The notes beneath the pieces are model-generated. The model had not been told where the DNA came from. It did not search any database and saw only the letters and a list, made by a program, of their open reading frames with translations. Of a stretch of 64,000 nucleotides of DNA, positions 15,501-59,035 are shown piece by piece (within the stretch, counting starts at the first letter, position 1; every line of letters starts with the position of its first letter). The position numbers were made by a program, and so were the translations under genes. Origin of the DNA: Beroe forskalii (Eukaryota; Ctenophora; Nuda; Beroida; Beroidae). The DNA lies in contig WFMF01000076.1 in NCBI GenBank assembly GCA_011033025.1, positions 532,770 through 596,769 of the forward strand, in the 5' to 3' direction.

Positions 15501-18500
15501 ATAAATTTTTATGATCGGCACTAAAGTGCGTAAATGGTTAAAAATGTACTACTTAAACATGTTGAGTAGGTGCATAATAGGTGAGTTAAGTAGGTACATA
15601 ATAGTTTTTCATTCGCTGGTGACATTTGAAGTCGGTATACACGCGATACCTCATATGTCACATGACTTCTTTGTTCCTTCACAAAACCTTCCAGGTAATC
15701 TACGGAGCGCAAGTAAACGACCCCCTCGACAAACAAGTCATCAATTCTATGCTGGACCACTTCATTACACCGGCTGCCTGCAAGAAGGACTACGAGATAC
15801 CCAAGACCAAGTCTTATCATTTAGTCTTGTCATTTTACAACATTTTGTCGATTTTACCACTGTACTAAAGTCTGTCGATGTTATCATTTTACATGAGTTA
15901 GTCGATGTAGGCCGATTTACAAGAGTAGGCCGGTGTTACCATTTACAAGAATTACTGAACAAGTCGATGTAACCATTTACCCCACCTCAGCCAAGTGGAA
16001 GCTCCCCTCCAGCTGCTTCCAACCAATGAGGAGCAACACCATCTCCATGATCATCTCCCAGATCGAGAACAACCCGCCTCCGGAGACCTATGAGGCGTGT
16101 CTCATGCACTCGGTCTCGGAGACGCAGCCCCAGGGAGACAGGAGCTTCTTCAGCCAGCTGGCACAGCTCTACGACATCGAGGCAAAGGAGCAGGAGCAAG
16201 TAGAAGTGGCTACTACTCCGGTTAGGAGTAGTGCTAACAGCGCTACTCTCAAGAGCAGGGACCGCTCCCCCCTCAGTCTCAAGACCGGCAAGGACGTGGA
16301 CCTCATTGAGACAGCTAATATTCTCCTGCAGAAACTACCCAAGGGTTGGCACAAGGTGAGGAGGGACTGGGGATCCCCTCTGTTTTCTTTTCTCTGCACA
16401 CCATGACTTCATGTCTCCTCTCTCTTCTTCTCCTCCCTCACTCCTCCCTCTCTCCTTCTCCTCCCTCACTATTCCTTTCTCTCAGGACTATGTAGTTGAG
16501 CGGCTGAAGAAGCTGGGAGGCTCCGTGGCCTTTGGCTACTTCATGAGCTGTGAGATGACGACCATGCAGAGTGTGCTGGATGAGATCAGAGCTAATCTCA
16601 CTGCGATCAAGTCAGCTGCAGAGCAACCCACCATCCACTCGCCCACAGTGATCTCAGTAGCCCACGACCTGCTGTACCAGAGAGTGCCCGCTCACTGGGT
16701 GGAGATGACTGGCTCCATCACGCCCCACCCCACCAACACCCTCACCTGGATAGGCGACATCGTGCAGCGCTGCAGCCACCTAGAGAGGGCGCTCCAGGGC
16801 AGGGAACGGGTCCCATGCCTCTGGATATCCGTGTTCTCAAACCCTGAGGGCTTGCTGGGGGCTGTCATGCACGAGGCGGTCCAGACGTTCGACGGACCCT
16901 CCACCAGCTTCGAGGAGTTCCACTTCACTACGGAAATAACCAACAGAGACAAAGACCATGTGAGTGGTCCAGCACCGTCAATTTGCCTATTTGATTTCTA
17001 GTGCTCTATAGTGTCTATGCTACTTACATGAAAAACGATGCTTCCCTTTGTGATCATGAAACCTTTAAAACTCTTCTTTCTTATCTCTTTCTCACCGTAG
17101 TGAAGAGTAGTGAAATCCCTTTCATTTCTAATCATTTCAGATTCAAATTCAGTTCCAACAATTCACCTCACACTCAGTAAGTAAAATCACTCATTGTGTC
17201 ATTGCTTAGCACAACCCATACTCTTAGTGCTCGGCAACTGTCCTGCACTCTCTTAAACTCCATAAGAACTCTCGGCGCTCTTGCTGGGAAGTGTTACTAG
17301 TTTGATTTCAACTCCATTGCCACAGGCAATCTTGAACATCCCAGTTCTACCCAAGTCCTCTCTCGAGCGACCCCCTCACTGTGGTCTTTATCACCTTCAC
17401 TTCTGCATGCTGTGCTTGAATACATTTTCCTTGAAACTGTGCTTGTTTTGTTTCGATTTTCATGGAATTTTGAAATAATGGTGGCTTCAAAATAATAATT
17501 TAGATTCTATTAATCTTTCTAATTTCTAAATATAATGCGTGATCAAACTGAAAGATCTTTCTGCGAATGATCTAACTGAAGGATCTCTCCGAGTGACCTC
17601 ACTTAATGAATAATAATCTCACATTAAAACACCCTCAGATCAGAGAATCGCCTAATGAAGGAATGTTTATCTACGGTATCTCTTTGTACGGTGCCAGCTG
17701 GGAACGGACTATCAATGAGATGCATAGAACTAAGACCTTTCTTACTTTCTTCTATTTAGCATACAGGTACGGTACGCCCCATCCTTACGACTTCCCAAAA
17801 GCACTCCCTTGCACCCCTCACCACTTCCCCTCCCCTCCCCTCACTCCCCACTGTACTCCCTCTCACCACTCCCCCTCACTACTCCCCCTCCCCTCCCTCA
17901 CCACACTCTCCCACACTCCCTCGCCACTCACCCTCCCACTCCCTCACTCACCTCTCCTCCTCACCGCTCACCCTCCCACTCCCTCACCCTTCCATCCCAC
18001 TCCCTCAAACCGCTCCTGTACACTCATCCTCACCACTCACCCTCCCCTTCAATCCCTCACCACTCCCACTCTACTCCTTTCCTCACCTCTCCTCATCACA
18101 TCTCCTCCTCACATCTCCTCCTCACCTCTCCTCTCCTCCTCACCACTCACCCTCCCTCGCCGCTCACCCTCCCACTCCCTCAACCTCCCACTGTCTCACC
18201 AATCACCCTTCCAGTCCCTCACCACTCACCCTCCACTTCTTCACCCCTCATCCCCTCAGATGCAAGATGTCGCCCCGAAGAGTAAGTTCACCCAGCTGCC
18301 AGTGGTCCATGTGACAGCAGCTTTCAACACCACAGACAGGACCCACTGTCTCTACCAGTGTCCGGTGTATTGTACGCGCTCCATGGACGACAAGCCTCTC
18401 TTCAGCCTGGGTGGGTGACGGGCAATCACTTTATTGAAGATTTCCAGCTTCCTAATTTTAGCCATACATATTCTCTCATTCAACTTTTCTCTGAAATTTA

Positions 18501-22019: not shown

Positions 22020-23400
22020 TATCACCAATGGCACCACTGGATTTGGCACCAATGGAGATCTATTGGCACCCCTGGTGATGGCTGAAAAGACACCAATGGT
22101 GATCGCCATTGGTGCCAATGGTACCATTAAGAAGCGATACTAAAGTCGACATCGTCATTAGAATTAGACTAAGAGGGGAGTGGTACCAATGGTGCCATTG
22201 GCACCAATGGTGCCATTCAAATAGCGACAAGGGTGCCATTGGCACCAGTGGAACATTTGGTCCCATTGGTTTTACTTCTATCGCTATCATTGGCACCATT
22301 GCCCCACTGGCACCATTAAAATGGTGCCATTGGTGCCATTGGCAACAATTTTGCCATCGGCGACAATTTTGCCATTGGCGACAAGTGACAATGTTGCCAT
22401 TGGCAACAATGTTGCCATCGGCGACAATTTTGCCATTGGCAACAATGTTGCCATCGGCGACAATTTTGCCATTGGCACCAATGTTGCCATCGGCGACAAT
22501 TTTGCCATTGGCGACAATTTTGCCATTGGCAACAATGTTGCCATCGGCGACAATTTTGCCATTGGCGACAATGTTGCCATCGGCGACAATTTTGCCATTG
22601 GCGACAAATGACAATGTTGCCATTGGCGACAATGTTGCCATAGGCGACAATATTGGCCCCTGCGCGCGCCCCATATTTGAAAAAAATATGGGGCAGGCAA
22701 CGTCTGGCAAGCCATTGGCGACAATGTTGTCATTGGCGACAATGTTGCCATTGGTGACAATGTTGCCATTGGCGACAATTTTGCCATTGGCCACAATGTT
22801 GCCATTGGTGACAATGTTGCCATTGGTGACAATGTTGCCATTGGCGACAATGTTGCCATTGGCGACAATGTTGCCATTGGCCACAATGTTGCCATTGGCC
22901 ACAATGTTGCCATTGGCGACAATGTTGCCATTGGCGACAATGTTGCCATTGGCGACAATGTTGCCATTGGCGACAATGTTGCCATTGGCGACAATGTTGC
23001 CATTGGCGACAATGTTGCCATTGGCGACAATGTTGCCATTGGCGACAATGTTGCCATTGGCGACAATGTTGCCATTGGCGACAATGTTGCCATTGGCGAC
23101 AATGTTGCCATTGGCGACAATGTTGCCATTGGCGACAATGTTGCCATTGGCGACAATGTTGCCATTGGCGACAATGTTGCCATTGGCGACAATGTTGCCA
23201 TTGACGACAATGTTGCCATTGACGACAATGGTGCCATTGGCACCTATGATACCAATGGCGCCATTTAAAATTGAATGATGCCAATGCACAATGTTGCCAA
23301 TGCACAATGTTGCCAATGCCATTGTGTGCCAGTGGCATTAATGGAATATTTCGGGCCATTTAAATGGTACCATAGGTGCCAATAGCACCATTGTTACCAT
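22020..23400 (+). repeat. 18-bp minisatellite (ATTGGCGACAATGTTGCC)
   Basis: Degenerate units at the edges and near-perfect 18-bp units at 22690-23250. Being a multiple of three, the array leaves long open frames on both strands (for example repeated NGNIVA), which are not genes. A short palindrome (CCCCATATTT...AAATATGGGG, 22669-22692) interrupts it. Degenerate relatives occur at about 59060-59300 and 63860-63950. Confidence 0.95.
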
Positions 23401-55622: not shown

Positions 55623-58600
55623 TTACTTCTTCTTAGAGGCTGGCTCCAAAGTAGAATATATCCACTCCATCCCTTCCTGAAGGAAGAATGATTTAAACAT
55701 ACAAGTTAACAATTATTAATGATGCAAATAAATGGAACAATCATTGATAAATGGTATACGTAAGTGAATAAATTAAGAAATTAGTGATGTATCAATGCAA
55801 GAGGGGCTCTTGCAGCTCACTTTATCCCCTCCAAAGTGATGGCAGAGCACGCCTGTATCTGCCATGTCCTGTCCCTTATCTGTGAAGATAGCTGCAAGTC
55901 GATAGCAATCTGAAACAAAGTGACTGAGTGATGTGAAGATAGCTGCAGTTCAATAGGAATCTGAAACAAAGTGACTGAGTGATGTGAAGATAGCTGCAAG
56001 TCAAGAGCAATCTGAAACAAAGTGACTGAGTAATGTGAAGATAGCTGCAAGTCGATAGCAATCTGAAACAAAGTGACTGAGTAATGTGAAGATAGCTGCA
56101 AGTCGATAGCAATCTGAAACAAAGTGAATGAGTGATGTGAAGATAGCTGCAAATCAACAGCAATCTGAAACAAAGTCACTCGGGTTATCAAAACATTAAA
56201 TGATATCAATTCGGCGGGCAGCACTTCATTTAACTCTCATTTTCATGAGTCTATGGCCGCCCAAGATTTAAATCTATCATACAAATTACAAACAATTTCT
56301 AGTTTTCAATTGCCCTTTGCCGCAGGCGCGAAAGGAAACGCAATGAAATGTTGAAATCGGGTCAAGTCATGACATTGCAGTTAAACACTGTAGGTTGTTC
56401 AGACACGGACGGAGCTAACGCAAGGGAATTCACCACCCTGGAATTAGCTCTGGTACAGAGAGAACTACTTATGTCAGCTCTCCGAGCTTTAAAGAGCGGC
56501 GGGGTGCGTTTAATTTGACACAGTAGATTCAGGAGTTAGTCGGGCAGGTGACAGCTATGAAGTGCTGGAAGGGTCAATGCGTCAGCTCACGACGCATCGT
56601 CTGGGGGAGTAACCCTCACTAGTACAGGGGCGGTAATCCCCTCAATTTCCTTCACGAATTTAGGGTTATGTGAAATTTCAGAAGGAGTCGTTTAACAGTA
56701 TATGGACTAGCCTGTGGTAAATTTACCCGCACGCAACTCAATATTGCCATATATGGTCAAATGTTTTATACATAGACTTTGTCCTCCAAGAATCAGCTGA
56801 GTTTTATCTTTTTGAAGCAATTTGATCAACTCATCTTGATGTTGCACATCTGGTATGTATACGTTATGTATTCACCTATGAATTACGCCACACACTATCA
56901 AGTTATCAAAGCAGGAGTTCACGGTACAGGCACCTCATCAAAGCCAAAACCTGCGCATGTTCTTAGCCTACAGCCTACCTCGATAGATCGTGCACTAGTG
57001 CCAAAGGAGGCTTCACGGACTTGCGGCATACTTAATCAGATAGGGAACATGGAAGCTAAGCTCGTCCGGAAGAAGTCTTCAAAGCCGTCACAATGGAGGC
57101 TAAGTTGCTAAGTTGTCCTCTCTGAATCTGACAGGGGAAACCTTTCGCCTGAGGTCGACTAACACCCAACCAGACGCAAGGCTTTGACATCTCGGCACGG
57201 GGTATATGGAACACCATGAAGACCTTCTTCGATGTCCGGGTGTTTCATGACGGGAATGTCTCCAACAGTGCCCTATTGACACGGTGCTCCACAAGCACGA
57301 GCAAGAGAAGAAGAGGGTTATAATAACAGGGTCATCCCGGTCAAGATAGCCACCTTTACACCACTCGTGTTCTCAGCAATTGGAGCTATGGGAAGGAAAC
57401 CACCACACCCTTGGCCTTACTTCCCCTCGCCTAACGAGTAACGATCACTTCCCCTCATTAAGTCACAAACCTATTATAGTATTATCACCATGCAGCATAC
57501 ATATTAGATCACCTTAGCAACGCATCTTTCATATCAAAATGCATCAGTTGTTGTTTGTAGTTACTTATGATGTGAATGAATATGATTTTGAAAAATTTGA
57601 GAATAAAATTTGTGTACAAGATTTCGGCGCACCACACGCTGCCTGAAGTTGCATAATTGAAGATTATGGGTACTCACCTGAGCAGGTTTGGCAGACTTGA
57701 AGAGGTCCTGCTTGTTGGCGTATATCAGAAGGGGCACCTTGTTCAGCTTCTCCTCCTCCAGCAGCTCCAAGAGCTCTTCCCCTGTCTCATCAAAGCGCCT
57801 CTTGTCAGCGCTATCTATCACATATATCTGGAAATAGAGAAATTCAGTCTCCAATATCCCAATTATCCCAAATACTCAAAAGATTCCCAAATTTTGTGAT
57901 TTCTTCTTCTGTCTGTCATTTGTGTCATAGCAACACAATGCATAAATTGGGGGAAATGCGCATGTGACAATGGATGATATGTAGTTGTGCGACGCACATG
58001 CACAGACCTGTAAATGTGTTACTGTGTTTCGTAATACGTAATGAATTTTGTTAACAAAGCTTGTAAATTTTCTGTTTCAATAAAATACATGATTCATTGG
58101 AAAAATGGAAAATTTTGAAATCATAAACGTATCAGGTATCATAGGTTAAGACTATTTTTGAATAACACTTTATTCTTATGATCACACAAGTCCGCCTTGC
58201 AAAGTTCCAAATTTGTACCTTCTTCAGCTCACTGCACAGCCTAAATGATCAAAGCGTTGAGAATACAATACATTCAAAGTGTACTGTACAGTAGTGCCCC
58301 CAATCCGTGGGGTTGGGGGCACTACTGGTGCTTTCGTAAGCCCCGTCACCTATATATCTATCTATCTATAGTACAATGTTCATGTAACCAACCATGAATA
58401 ATATCCAATGAAGTTCTTATCAACACATCAGTATTCTCGAAATAGTTTTTCCAGTAAGGTCGTATCTTCTTCTGGCCACCAATATCCCACACGTTTAACT
58501 TCAGCCCACTGGAATTCACTGACTTGATGTTGAAACCCTGCAGAGAAGTTTCATAGTGCTAGTTGTTGTCATGATTCTCAATCAATGGAAAAATTTCCTT

Positions 58601-59035
58601 ATCATAAATTAGGGCTCCCAAGCTCAGTCATTTCTGAATTGAGTTGATGACTGTGAGCAGGTCTATAAGACAATATCAAATCCATTATCTCATCTTTTTT
58701 ATGTGTTAACCCATATGTGTGCAGACCGCACGATTGAAAAAGGGCTCAATAGAGATGCGCAAAAATTGTGTGCTTTTGACGGATTTTGTATAGAAAGTTG
58801 AAGTGCGGACAGGAAATCTGCGCGTCTTTATCGAGGCCTCTGTTAATTGAGCGGTCTGCACACATATGCGTAAGTCTCAGTACAGTGTTACCTGAGTGGG
58901 CATGATGTGAGTCACGTCCTCATTGGCAAGTGCTTTGAGGATGGTGGTTTTGCCAGCATTATCCAAACCTAGGAGTAGAATCCTAACTTCCCTCTCTGTT
59001 TCACGTTGGAATTTCCTCAGCAGTGACAATAGACC
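55623..59035 (-). CDS. ARL3: ARL3 small GTPase, at least five coding exons
   Basis: Exons in transcript order: 59035-58892, 58537-58421, 57827-57678, 55909-55821, 55676-55623. They give [20 protein letters not shown], then [15 protein letters not shown] (P-loop GLDNAGKT), [31 protein letters not shown] (switch II DIGGQ), [29 protein letters not shown] (NKQD), [29 protein letters not shown] (SA motif) and a KKK tail before TAA. This is ARL3 along its whole length. ARL3-GTP releases lipidated cargo from UNC119 and PDE6D inside cilia. The initiator is uncertain: the first clear exon begins at Gly2, and a possible 5' exon lies at 59528-59499. Two junctions are not GT-AG (58420/57828 and 55820/55677). 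Confidence 0.92.
55888..56180 (-). repeat. Tandem copies of the ARL3 exon acceptor and exon start (about 5-6)
   Basis: On the minus strand the true sequence TTTGTTTCAG|ATTGCTATCG with the following exon bases (to TATCTTCACA) is preceded by about five further copies, each ending 'tcactcagtcac'. The unit is about 59 bp (56-61). Every copy has a usable-looking CAG acceptor followed by the coding start; only the copy next to 55909 continues into the exon. Confidence 0.9.
56327..56518 (+). CDS. Possible terminal exon or fragment, unknown
   Basis: Open frame of 63 codons after an acceptor-like gccgcag: begins [20 protein letters not shown] and ends [16 protein letters not shown] then TGA. Codon use looks more coding than its surroundings, but I do not recognise a family and there is no upstream exon to join. 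It lies in ARL3 intron 4 on the opposite strand. Confidence 0.2.
   Translation, partial: RERKRNEMLKSGQVMTLQLNTVGCSDTDGANAREFTTLELALVQRELLMSALRALKSGGVRLI
57135..57440 (+). pseudogene. Degraded retroelement reverse-transcriptase-linked C-terminal fragment
   Basis: Frame-shifted pieces read [24 protein letters not shown]-like and [17 protein letters not shown]. These match the 'FFDVRVF.P.A ... YxxHExEKxRxY ... FTPLVFSxxGGMG' tail found in retroelement polyproteins of many invertebrates. Several frameshifts and stops make it a dead copy. It lies in ARL3 intron 3 on the opposite strand. Confidence 0.65.
58289..58327. repeat. Short near-perfect hairpin
   Basis: CAGTAGTGCCCCCAATCC and GGGTTGGGGGCACTACTG pair with one mismatch around a three-base loop. 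It lies in ARL3 intron 2. The tiny loop argues against a microRNA precursor. Confidence 0.8.
58712..58868. mobile_element. 157-bp MITE with 18-bp perfect TIRs
   Basis: CATATGTGTGCAGACCGC (58712-58729) is exactly inverse-complementary to 58851-58868. No coding capacity. Inserted in an ARL3 intron. Confidence 0.88.

Follow-up and report, generated by a model that had tools for sequence, protein, structure and literature searches.

An AT-AG intron in ARL3 of Beroe forskalii and candidate introns that depart from the GT-AG rule in other conserved genes

The ARL3 locus and other features of the window

The window, i.e., the whole 64,000-nt stretch of Beroe forskalii DNA that was analysed and to which the positions below refer, carries an ARL3 gene on its minus strand. 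Spliced alignment to human ARL3 gave five coding exons, which are complete from Gly2 to the stop codon; the exon with the initiator methionine belongs upstream of 59035, and spliced alignment within the window found no location for it. The first located coding exon begins at Gly2 (58892..59035), and the exon GFNIKS..NTDVL (58421..58537) terminates in GATGTGTTG. Between this exon and the following one (57678..57827) lies an intron of 593 nt with the ends AT-AG (57828..58420, minus strand; ATAAGAAC...TTTCCAG), the junctions of which were placed with the guidance of the protein. The two remaining exons occupy 55821..55909 and, including the stop codon, 55623..55677, and the last intron, which separates them (55678..55820), is read as GT-CA or TG-AG. 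One-base frameshifts occur elsewhere in the assembly, in CCT1 (L035) and in one U2AF1 copy (L051), so single-base anomalies such as the GT-CA intron of ARL3, which is off by one base, may be assembly errors. The acceptor and the start of the exon IAIDLQLSS are present in about six tandem copies (TTTGTTTCAGATTGCT..) at 55900-56180 of the minus strand, and the last copy joins the exon.

Around the AT-AG intron, the minus strand reads GATGTGTTG ending at 58421, ATAAGAACTT from 58420, TTCTCTATTTCCAG to 57828, and ATATATGTG from 57827. With slashes at the junctions, the intron and its flanks are GATGTGTTG/ATAAGAACTTC...CTGAATTTCTCTATTTCCAG/ATATATGTG, or in short form TTG/ATAAGAAC...TTTCCAG/ATATATG. 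The original prediction had placed an AT-AG intron at exactly this conserved junction, and the sequence agrees with it: the joined protein aligns gaplessly with human ARL3 across the junction, and ARL3 chains in the PDB match the three joined exons that span it (E about 2e-61). A G precedes both junctions and ATA follows both, so the cut can slide one base to the left and three to the right, and the intron can also be read as GA-CA, TA-GA, AA-AT, or AG-TA; GT-AG is found at none of the five positions. A re-splicing scan that paired AG acceptors with in-frame donors of the kinds GT, GC, AT, and GA was also carried out. No canonical GT-AG pair that spares every residue was found in the slide or among the nearest 40 of the 259 pairs; the nearest in-frame GT-AG solution uses the GT at 58426 and costs a conserved Val-Leu, and a forced canonical alignment picks the same one.

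At the 5′ end of the intron GT is absent and AT stands in its place. The 5′ splice site (58415..58420, minus strand) is ATAAGA, i.e., the GTAAGA donor with A at +1 that had been predicted, and its first three bases are those with which the next exon starts (ATA). Positions +2 to +6 (TAAGA) are complementary to U1, and the TAAG at +2 to +5 has a chance of 1/256 per position. When the donor was scored without its first two bases, it fell in the middle of the range, with 37 of 69 GT-AG donors scoring lower. The 3′ splice site (57828..57842, minus strand; TTTCTCTATTTCCAG) has a pyrimidine tract followed by CAG. Within the intron, at 58289-58327, there is an 18-nt hairpin that is 94% perfect (AGTAGTGCCCCCAA..) and resembles a small palindromic element. 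The 216-Mb assembly contains one ARL3 locus, the next-best match being 59% identical, and a second allele for comparison is therefore absent.

The original prediction also counted two unrelated genes in the window with A at +1. The other gene meant is probably an axonemal dynein heavy chain gene on the plus strand, in which a candidate AT-AG intron flanked by the repeat AGATGCA lies at 17720..18259. The claim stands for ARL3; the dynein intron can be read as AT-AG, but its region is poorly conserved. A candidate CC-AG intron with the repeat CCAAG was found in the same dynein gene (15801..15990, plus strand), and the frame that it joins is open (DYEIPKWKLPSS). Local homology is weak at both, and we keep the two dynein introns as candidates because the dyneins in the PDB align loosely. 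A long tandem repeat is also present in the window at 22060-23337; it reads as repeated NGNIVA or, in a different frame, as repeated LATMLP.

A mitochondrial contig of 13,339 nt (C1134), with 17% GC over its first 10 kb, was read with code 4; it has in-frame TGA and encodes very Phe-rich proteins, including COX1. ATA and AGR occur on it at sites that we take to be conserved Ile and Arg, and this codon usage argues against the usual bilaterian mitochondrial codes. In the tunicate mitochondrial code, AGR is not read as Arg, whereas here it seems to be Arg. The mitochondrial features are, we presume, reminiscent of ctenophores.

Survey of introns in conserved genes

The survey sample consisted of 27 fetched loci and ARL3, with one copy per gene region, from the CCT, MCM, U2AF1, and small-GTPase genes. 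The genes aligned were CCT1, 2, 3, 6, 7, and 8; MCM3-6; four U2AF1 genes; ARF and SAR; and Ras/Rab. We used a splice-aware aligner, tried on ARL3, that allowed any donor and acceptor and penalised non-GT and non-AG ends; the human reference proteins, like the weights for donors and acceptors, were entered by hand. A junction passed the filter when it had at least three identities in eight, free of gaps, on each side. The final count omitted second copies (L033, L040, L043, L069, L079, and L009) and weak or intronless loci (L006-L008, L046, L053-L067, L070-L073, L076, and L077), L046 being dropped for a weak reference. The aligner read 106 introns, of which 79 passed the filter and 27 failed (23 GT-AG and one each of GC-AG, GA-AG, TC-AG, and GT-GA). 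Three unusual readings were left uncounted at the local-identity filter: a GA-AG intron at MCM4-221 (repeat 0+6), an apparent GT-GA intron in RAB6A, and an apparent AT-AG intron in RAN (L076).

Among the 79 passing introns, the junctions of which are inferred from protein conservation, 69 were GT-AG and 10 were of other kinds. Four of these were AT-AG (CCT3, CCT6, CCT8, and ARL3), and the others were single cases: GA-AG (CCT6), CT-AG (CCT3), AG-AG (RAB11A), GT-TG (CCT8), GT-AA (SAR1), and GT-CA (the last intron of ARL3). ARL3 was excluded from the rate because it had been chosen for its oddity. In the remaining sample, 8 of the 76 introns as called by the aligner from protein conservation were not GT-AG (Wilson interval 5-19%), and 6 of the 76 had a non-GT 5′ end (4-16%), which was AT, GA, CT, or AG. 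The survey of donor dinucleotides that had been proposed as a check thus gave ARL3 company within this sample of conserved genes, and the counts suggest that about one intron in ten in the genome breaks the GT-AG rule. No canonical pair was available within the slide of any of the 10 non-GT-AG introns. All seven of the elements with a non-GT 5′ end terminate in AG, which mostly follows a pyrimidine-rich stretch. The introns of the U2AF1 genes were GT-AG in 16 of 16 cases, one frameshift artefact having been left out. A search of the genome with a clathrin segment returned no match, an oddity that we ascribe to the first look of the search and not to the genome.

These counts bear on the view, put forward with the original prediction, that the lineage tolerates AT-AG introns with U2-type donor sites. 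AT-AG was indeed the commonest kind of non-GT-AG intron (4 of 10), but the tolerance appears to be wider than A at +1. A U2-type donor context likewise describes ARL3, but four of the seven non-GT donors lie in poor contexts, with only 2, 3, 3, and 6 of the 69 GT-AG donors scoring lower; two of the four are the AT-AG donors CCT6-192 (3 of 69) and CCT3-36 (6 of 69).

Canonical models of the same genes came at a price. GT-AG or GC-AG ends were forced on ARL3, CCT3, CCT6, and CCT8: in ARL3, CCT6, and CCT8 this removed one to three residues or the C-terminus of the protein, and at the first odd intron of CCT3 it cost one residue. For the CT-AG intron of CCT3, a model with two introns around a 7-nt microexon is an alternative that adds two residues, and the GT-TG intron of CCT8 can be read as GT-AG with the loss of one residue. 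Five of the seven non-GT donors (in ARL3, CCT3, CCT8, and twice in CCT6) have an in-frame GT or GC 3-9 nt upstream of them, and its use would drop one to three conserved residues.

Contig C558 carries two copies of CCT3 (L033 and L041) that run in opposite directions. The copies differ at 30 of 1602 nt; all 30 differences are silent and none is coding, so both copies look like working genes. Intron lengths differ up to 2.4-fold between them, and the AT-AG and CT-AG introns lie at identical places in both, with their repeats kept. Such a pattern would not be expected from random sequence error or from a broken allele. Opposite-direction pairs on one contig were seen for CCT3, for MCM6, and for an ARF relative (C580, C44); these may be two haplotypes that the assembler has linked, or true inverted duplications. 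The two SAR1 copies (L009 and L010) have the GT-AA intron in common, and L009 has a second donor without the GT that L010 keeps.

Direct repeats at the junctions and components of the spliceosome

With the junctions read as above, the feature common to the non-GT donors, missed in the earlier note, is a direct repeat of the start of the downstream exon. At all seven of these donors, the start of the intron repeats the first 3-16 bases of the next exon, the right-hand arms being 6, 6, 10, 16, 3, 7, and 3 nt long; a right arm of 3 nt or more was found in 12 of the 69 GT-AG introns. When both arms are counted, the repeats at the six donors other than ARL3 are 7-18 nt long, and that of ARL3 is 1+3 nt (G and ATA). 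Repeats of at least 8 nt spanning the junction occurred in 7 of the 79 introns; in a control in which donors were re-paired with other acceptors (5000 trials), the mean was 0.45 and the maximum was 4. The clearest repeats are those of CCT3 and RAB11A; the repeat in CCT3 is TAG/CTTGGGGACTAAATTC...CAG/CTTGGGGACTAAATTC, and that in RAB11A is CCTTTTCAG/AGAAGAA...CCTTTTCAG/AGAAGAA. Two GT-AG introns of CCT7 also have repeats, one of 13+2 (TCAAGATGCTGAG/GTAAGT...TCAAGATGCTGAG/GTCG) and one of 1+10 (G/GTATCAAGAA...G/GTATCAAGAA).

In SAR1, the 10-nt end of the exon is repeated at the end of the intron in L009 (CTTCATGCAA/GTAAGG...CTTCATGCAA/CC, 10+0), and in L010, the copy that was counted, the left repeat is down to 3. 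SAR1 may be a mirror case in which the 3′ end is free, and the left arms at the three counted non-AG 3′ ends are 4, 3, and 1, so this mirror rule is weak. When the GT-AG introns were taken as a group (52 introns) and compared position by position, junction repeats were not clearly in excess. A common sequence family was sought among 61 introns and no cross-matches were found, and the terminal inverted repeats of the introns were at background; with neither a family nor inverted repeats, nothing points positively to a mobile element. In ARL3, an origin by insertion would be weakly marked, by the three bases in common. Since the repeat is just 3 nt long, decay of a GTAAGA donor by a simple G-to-A change at +1 is a possible alternative history for this intron.

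An altered U1 or U6 snRNA, for which a check had been proposed, was considered as the cause of the odd introns, and the copies found did not bear this out. The 5′ end of U1 is ATACTTACCTG in 8 of 10 matches (best 41 of 3781 candidates scored), and the ACAGAGA region of U6 is normal in 6 of 8 matches (best 47 of 17908 candidates scored). On these 10 U1 and 8 U6 matches, which have no change that would explain the introns, we rejected this cause. The U1-like sequences L012 and L020 have the 5′ end ATACTAACCTG instead; this variant would pair with GTTAG donors, which make up 8 of 72 GT donors, a correlation only. U11 is present at at least one locus (72.8 bits). The copy numbers of U1, U6, and U11 are lower bounds, because only the best candidates were scored. 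Four U2AF1 paralogs were found (L049-L052), with 61-83% mutual identity over about 186 residues, the closest to the human protein being L050 (71%). Among 13 matches to U2AF2 there is one strong locus, and the others are 25-36% identical.

Interpretation and comparison with known systems

We consider it fairly probable that the unusual elements are U2-type introns with relaxed ends, which were partly born with target-site duplications. With the same confidence, we take the ARL3 element to be a true nuclear intron that is cut exactly at AT...AG and that belongs to a population in which about one intron in ten is not GT-AG. The odd introns would be removed by the major spliceosome, which would tolerate 5′ ends other than GT and sometimes 3′ ends other than AG, for the most part at introns with a pyrimidine-rich 3′ splice site. 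Recognition would come largely from the 3′ side, through the pyrimidine tract, the AG, and the enlarged U2AF1 family, which may take part in recognising the odd introns (compare Fritillaria, below). What U1 pairing remains would help, and this pairing is good in ARL3 and RAB11A and poor in CCT3 and CCT6. Many of the odd introns may have arisen by an insertion that duplicated a few bases of the target exon. As the target is duplicated at insertion, one splice site would be whatever the target supplied: where the start of the intron equals the start of the exon, the 5′ dinucleotide would be free, and where the end of the intron equals the end of the exon, the 3′ dinucleotide may be free. The sequence itself shows the junctions, the conserved frames, the repeats, the U2AF1 paralogs, and normal U1 and U6 cores in most of the copies found; from these features we infer the splicing at these positions, the spliceosome as its agent, the origin by insertion, and any role of U2AF1. 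A bolder form of this idea, which we hold only tentatively and as rather doubtful, is that the spliceosome of this lineage accepts any dinucleotide that a target duplication leaves at one end of an intron; introns could then be inserted anywhere in coding sequence without AG/GT, ARL3 would be one case, and the four U2AF1 paralogs would let the 3′ side alone define the intron.

A plain point mutation, in which the +1 G of a U2-type GTAAGA donor became A with no insertion involved, is the alternative that we take most seriously, and we regard it as quite possible although not probable. The A would be tolerated because positions +2 to +6 pair well with U1. The fit of TAAGA to the donor consensus, with its mid-range score, and the shortness of the 1+3-nt repeat favour such a history for ARL3, and there is a human parallel in ACTR10, an intron described as AT-AG in some primates and GT in other mammals, and as derived from GT in primates, in the part of the source available (PMC4176328). 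However, the AT-AG donors CCT6-192 and CCT3-36 lie in the poor contexts given above, which argues that the AT-AG class as a whole does not consist of decayed GT donors. It is unlikely, in our view, that the A at 58420 reflects an error of the consensus or the broken allele of a heterozygous animal of which the normal alleles have GT. The one-base frameshifts in CCT1 and in one U2AF1 copy do reveal errors or decay, and the assembly has just one copy of ARL3; but the errors observed are frameshifts, from which a G-to-A substitution differs in kind, and further donors without GT were read in several independent conserved genes, CCT3 having them in both of its copies.

Three further accounts concern how the intron is removed. 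Excision of a transposon from RNA or from somatic DNA, with rejoining at direct repeats, would suit the several elements that are flanked by direct repeats of up to 18 nt. Nevertheless, the AG at the end of all seven non-GT elements, in most of them after a pyrimidine-rich stretch, and terminal inverted repeats no higher than background make such a non-spliceosomal route improbable. Still less probable is A-to-I editing that would convert AT-AG to GT-AG in the RNA, as documented for three human AT-AG introns in the portion of PMC4176328 available. The region folds better than its shuffles (z -2.5, with 1 of 100 shuffles as good), but the fold and a scan for inverted repeats gave no strong duplex partner for 58420. 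An A that directly follows a G, as the one at 58420 does, is in a poor context for ADAR; moreover, editing would leave the GA and CT donors unexplained. U12-type introns have the 5′ site RTATCCTT and, close to the 3′ end, a branch site like TTCCTTRAC. That ARL3 has such a minor-spliceosome intron with AT-AG ends would accord with the presence of U11 RNA and with the AT at the start of the intron, but its 5′ site is ATAAGAAC and not ATATCCTT, no branch site like TTCCTTAAC was seen near its end (by eye: GACTGAATTTCTCTATTTCCAG), and a pyrimidine tract precedes the acceptor. According to the accessible text of PMC3584512, AT-AG ends are disfavoured among U12 introns. We rejected the U12-type identity on the motifs and consider it very unlikely.

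If U2-type introns with relaxed ends are the correct reading, a genome that has U11 and normal copies of U1 and U6, and still about one non-canonical intron in ten, would offer a natural experiment on the limits of spliceosomal relaxation. To our knowledge, nearly all animal genomes follow GT-AG. The repeats at the intron ends, if they are what they seem, would be direct marks of the birth of new introns, a long-open question. Conserved genes in such species would be lost or damaged in annotation, because standard predictors force GT-AG. Among the literature matches listed, with most of the subscription literature outside their scope, there was no report of non-canonical introns in the ctenophore lineage.

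The closest comparisons come from other animals and from protists, each taken from the text available for the source cited. In the larvacean Fritillaria borealis, fewer than 10% of introns are GT-AG, U2AF2 is duplicated, and U12 is lost; extra U2AF copies accompany the non-canonical introns there and bind unusual 3′ ends (PMC13326754, as far as its text was available). The present genome resembles it in having many non-GT-AG introns in an animal with conserved U1 and U6 cores and extra U2AF1 genes, here four paralogs. It differs in that about 90% of the sampled introns are GT-AG, one strong U2AF2 locus was found, and U11 is present. Most of the odd introns here are odd at the 5′ end, which leaves the U2AF parallel suggestive. 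Oikopleura dioica and Eurytemora affinis are likewise animals with about 10% of minor non-canonical sites, whereas their introns are described in the available part of PMC7072748 as GA-AG in a conserved AG/GA..A context; here AT-AG leads, and the donors are alike only in that each resembles its own downstream exon. Human AT-AG introns (ACTR10, and the edited introns of C14orf37, NUP210, and CRYZL1) have the same terminal dinucleotides, but those described in the accessible text of PMC4176328 are few and some are edited, whereas the present ones recur in conserved genes and their junctions appear to be constitutive.

Introners offer a likeness in mechanism: according to what could be consulted of PMC9860276, the insert contributes one of their splice sites and the duplicated target the other, whichever way round they lie. 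They form sequence families, however, whereas the 61 introns compared here contained none; the repeats here also reach 18 nt, and a co-opted site can have a dinucleotide other than GT or AG. The nonconventional introns of euglenids have ends that pair (PMC11170887, available in part). In the dinoflagellate Amoebophrya, the splice dinucleotides are diverse and a subset of introns has direct repeats, as in the present sample. That subset also has inverted repeats of 8-20 nt, in contrast to the introns studied here, which have none above background, and in the text available of PMC7789003 more than 60% of the introns are non-canonical and U1 is given as not found, whereas U1 is present here. Set beside these systems, the present case looks like a mild form of the state of Fritillaria or Amoebophrya, and it differs from each of them in its dinucleotides, in the proportion of non-canonical introns, in its U12 status, or in the absence of inverted repeats.
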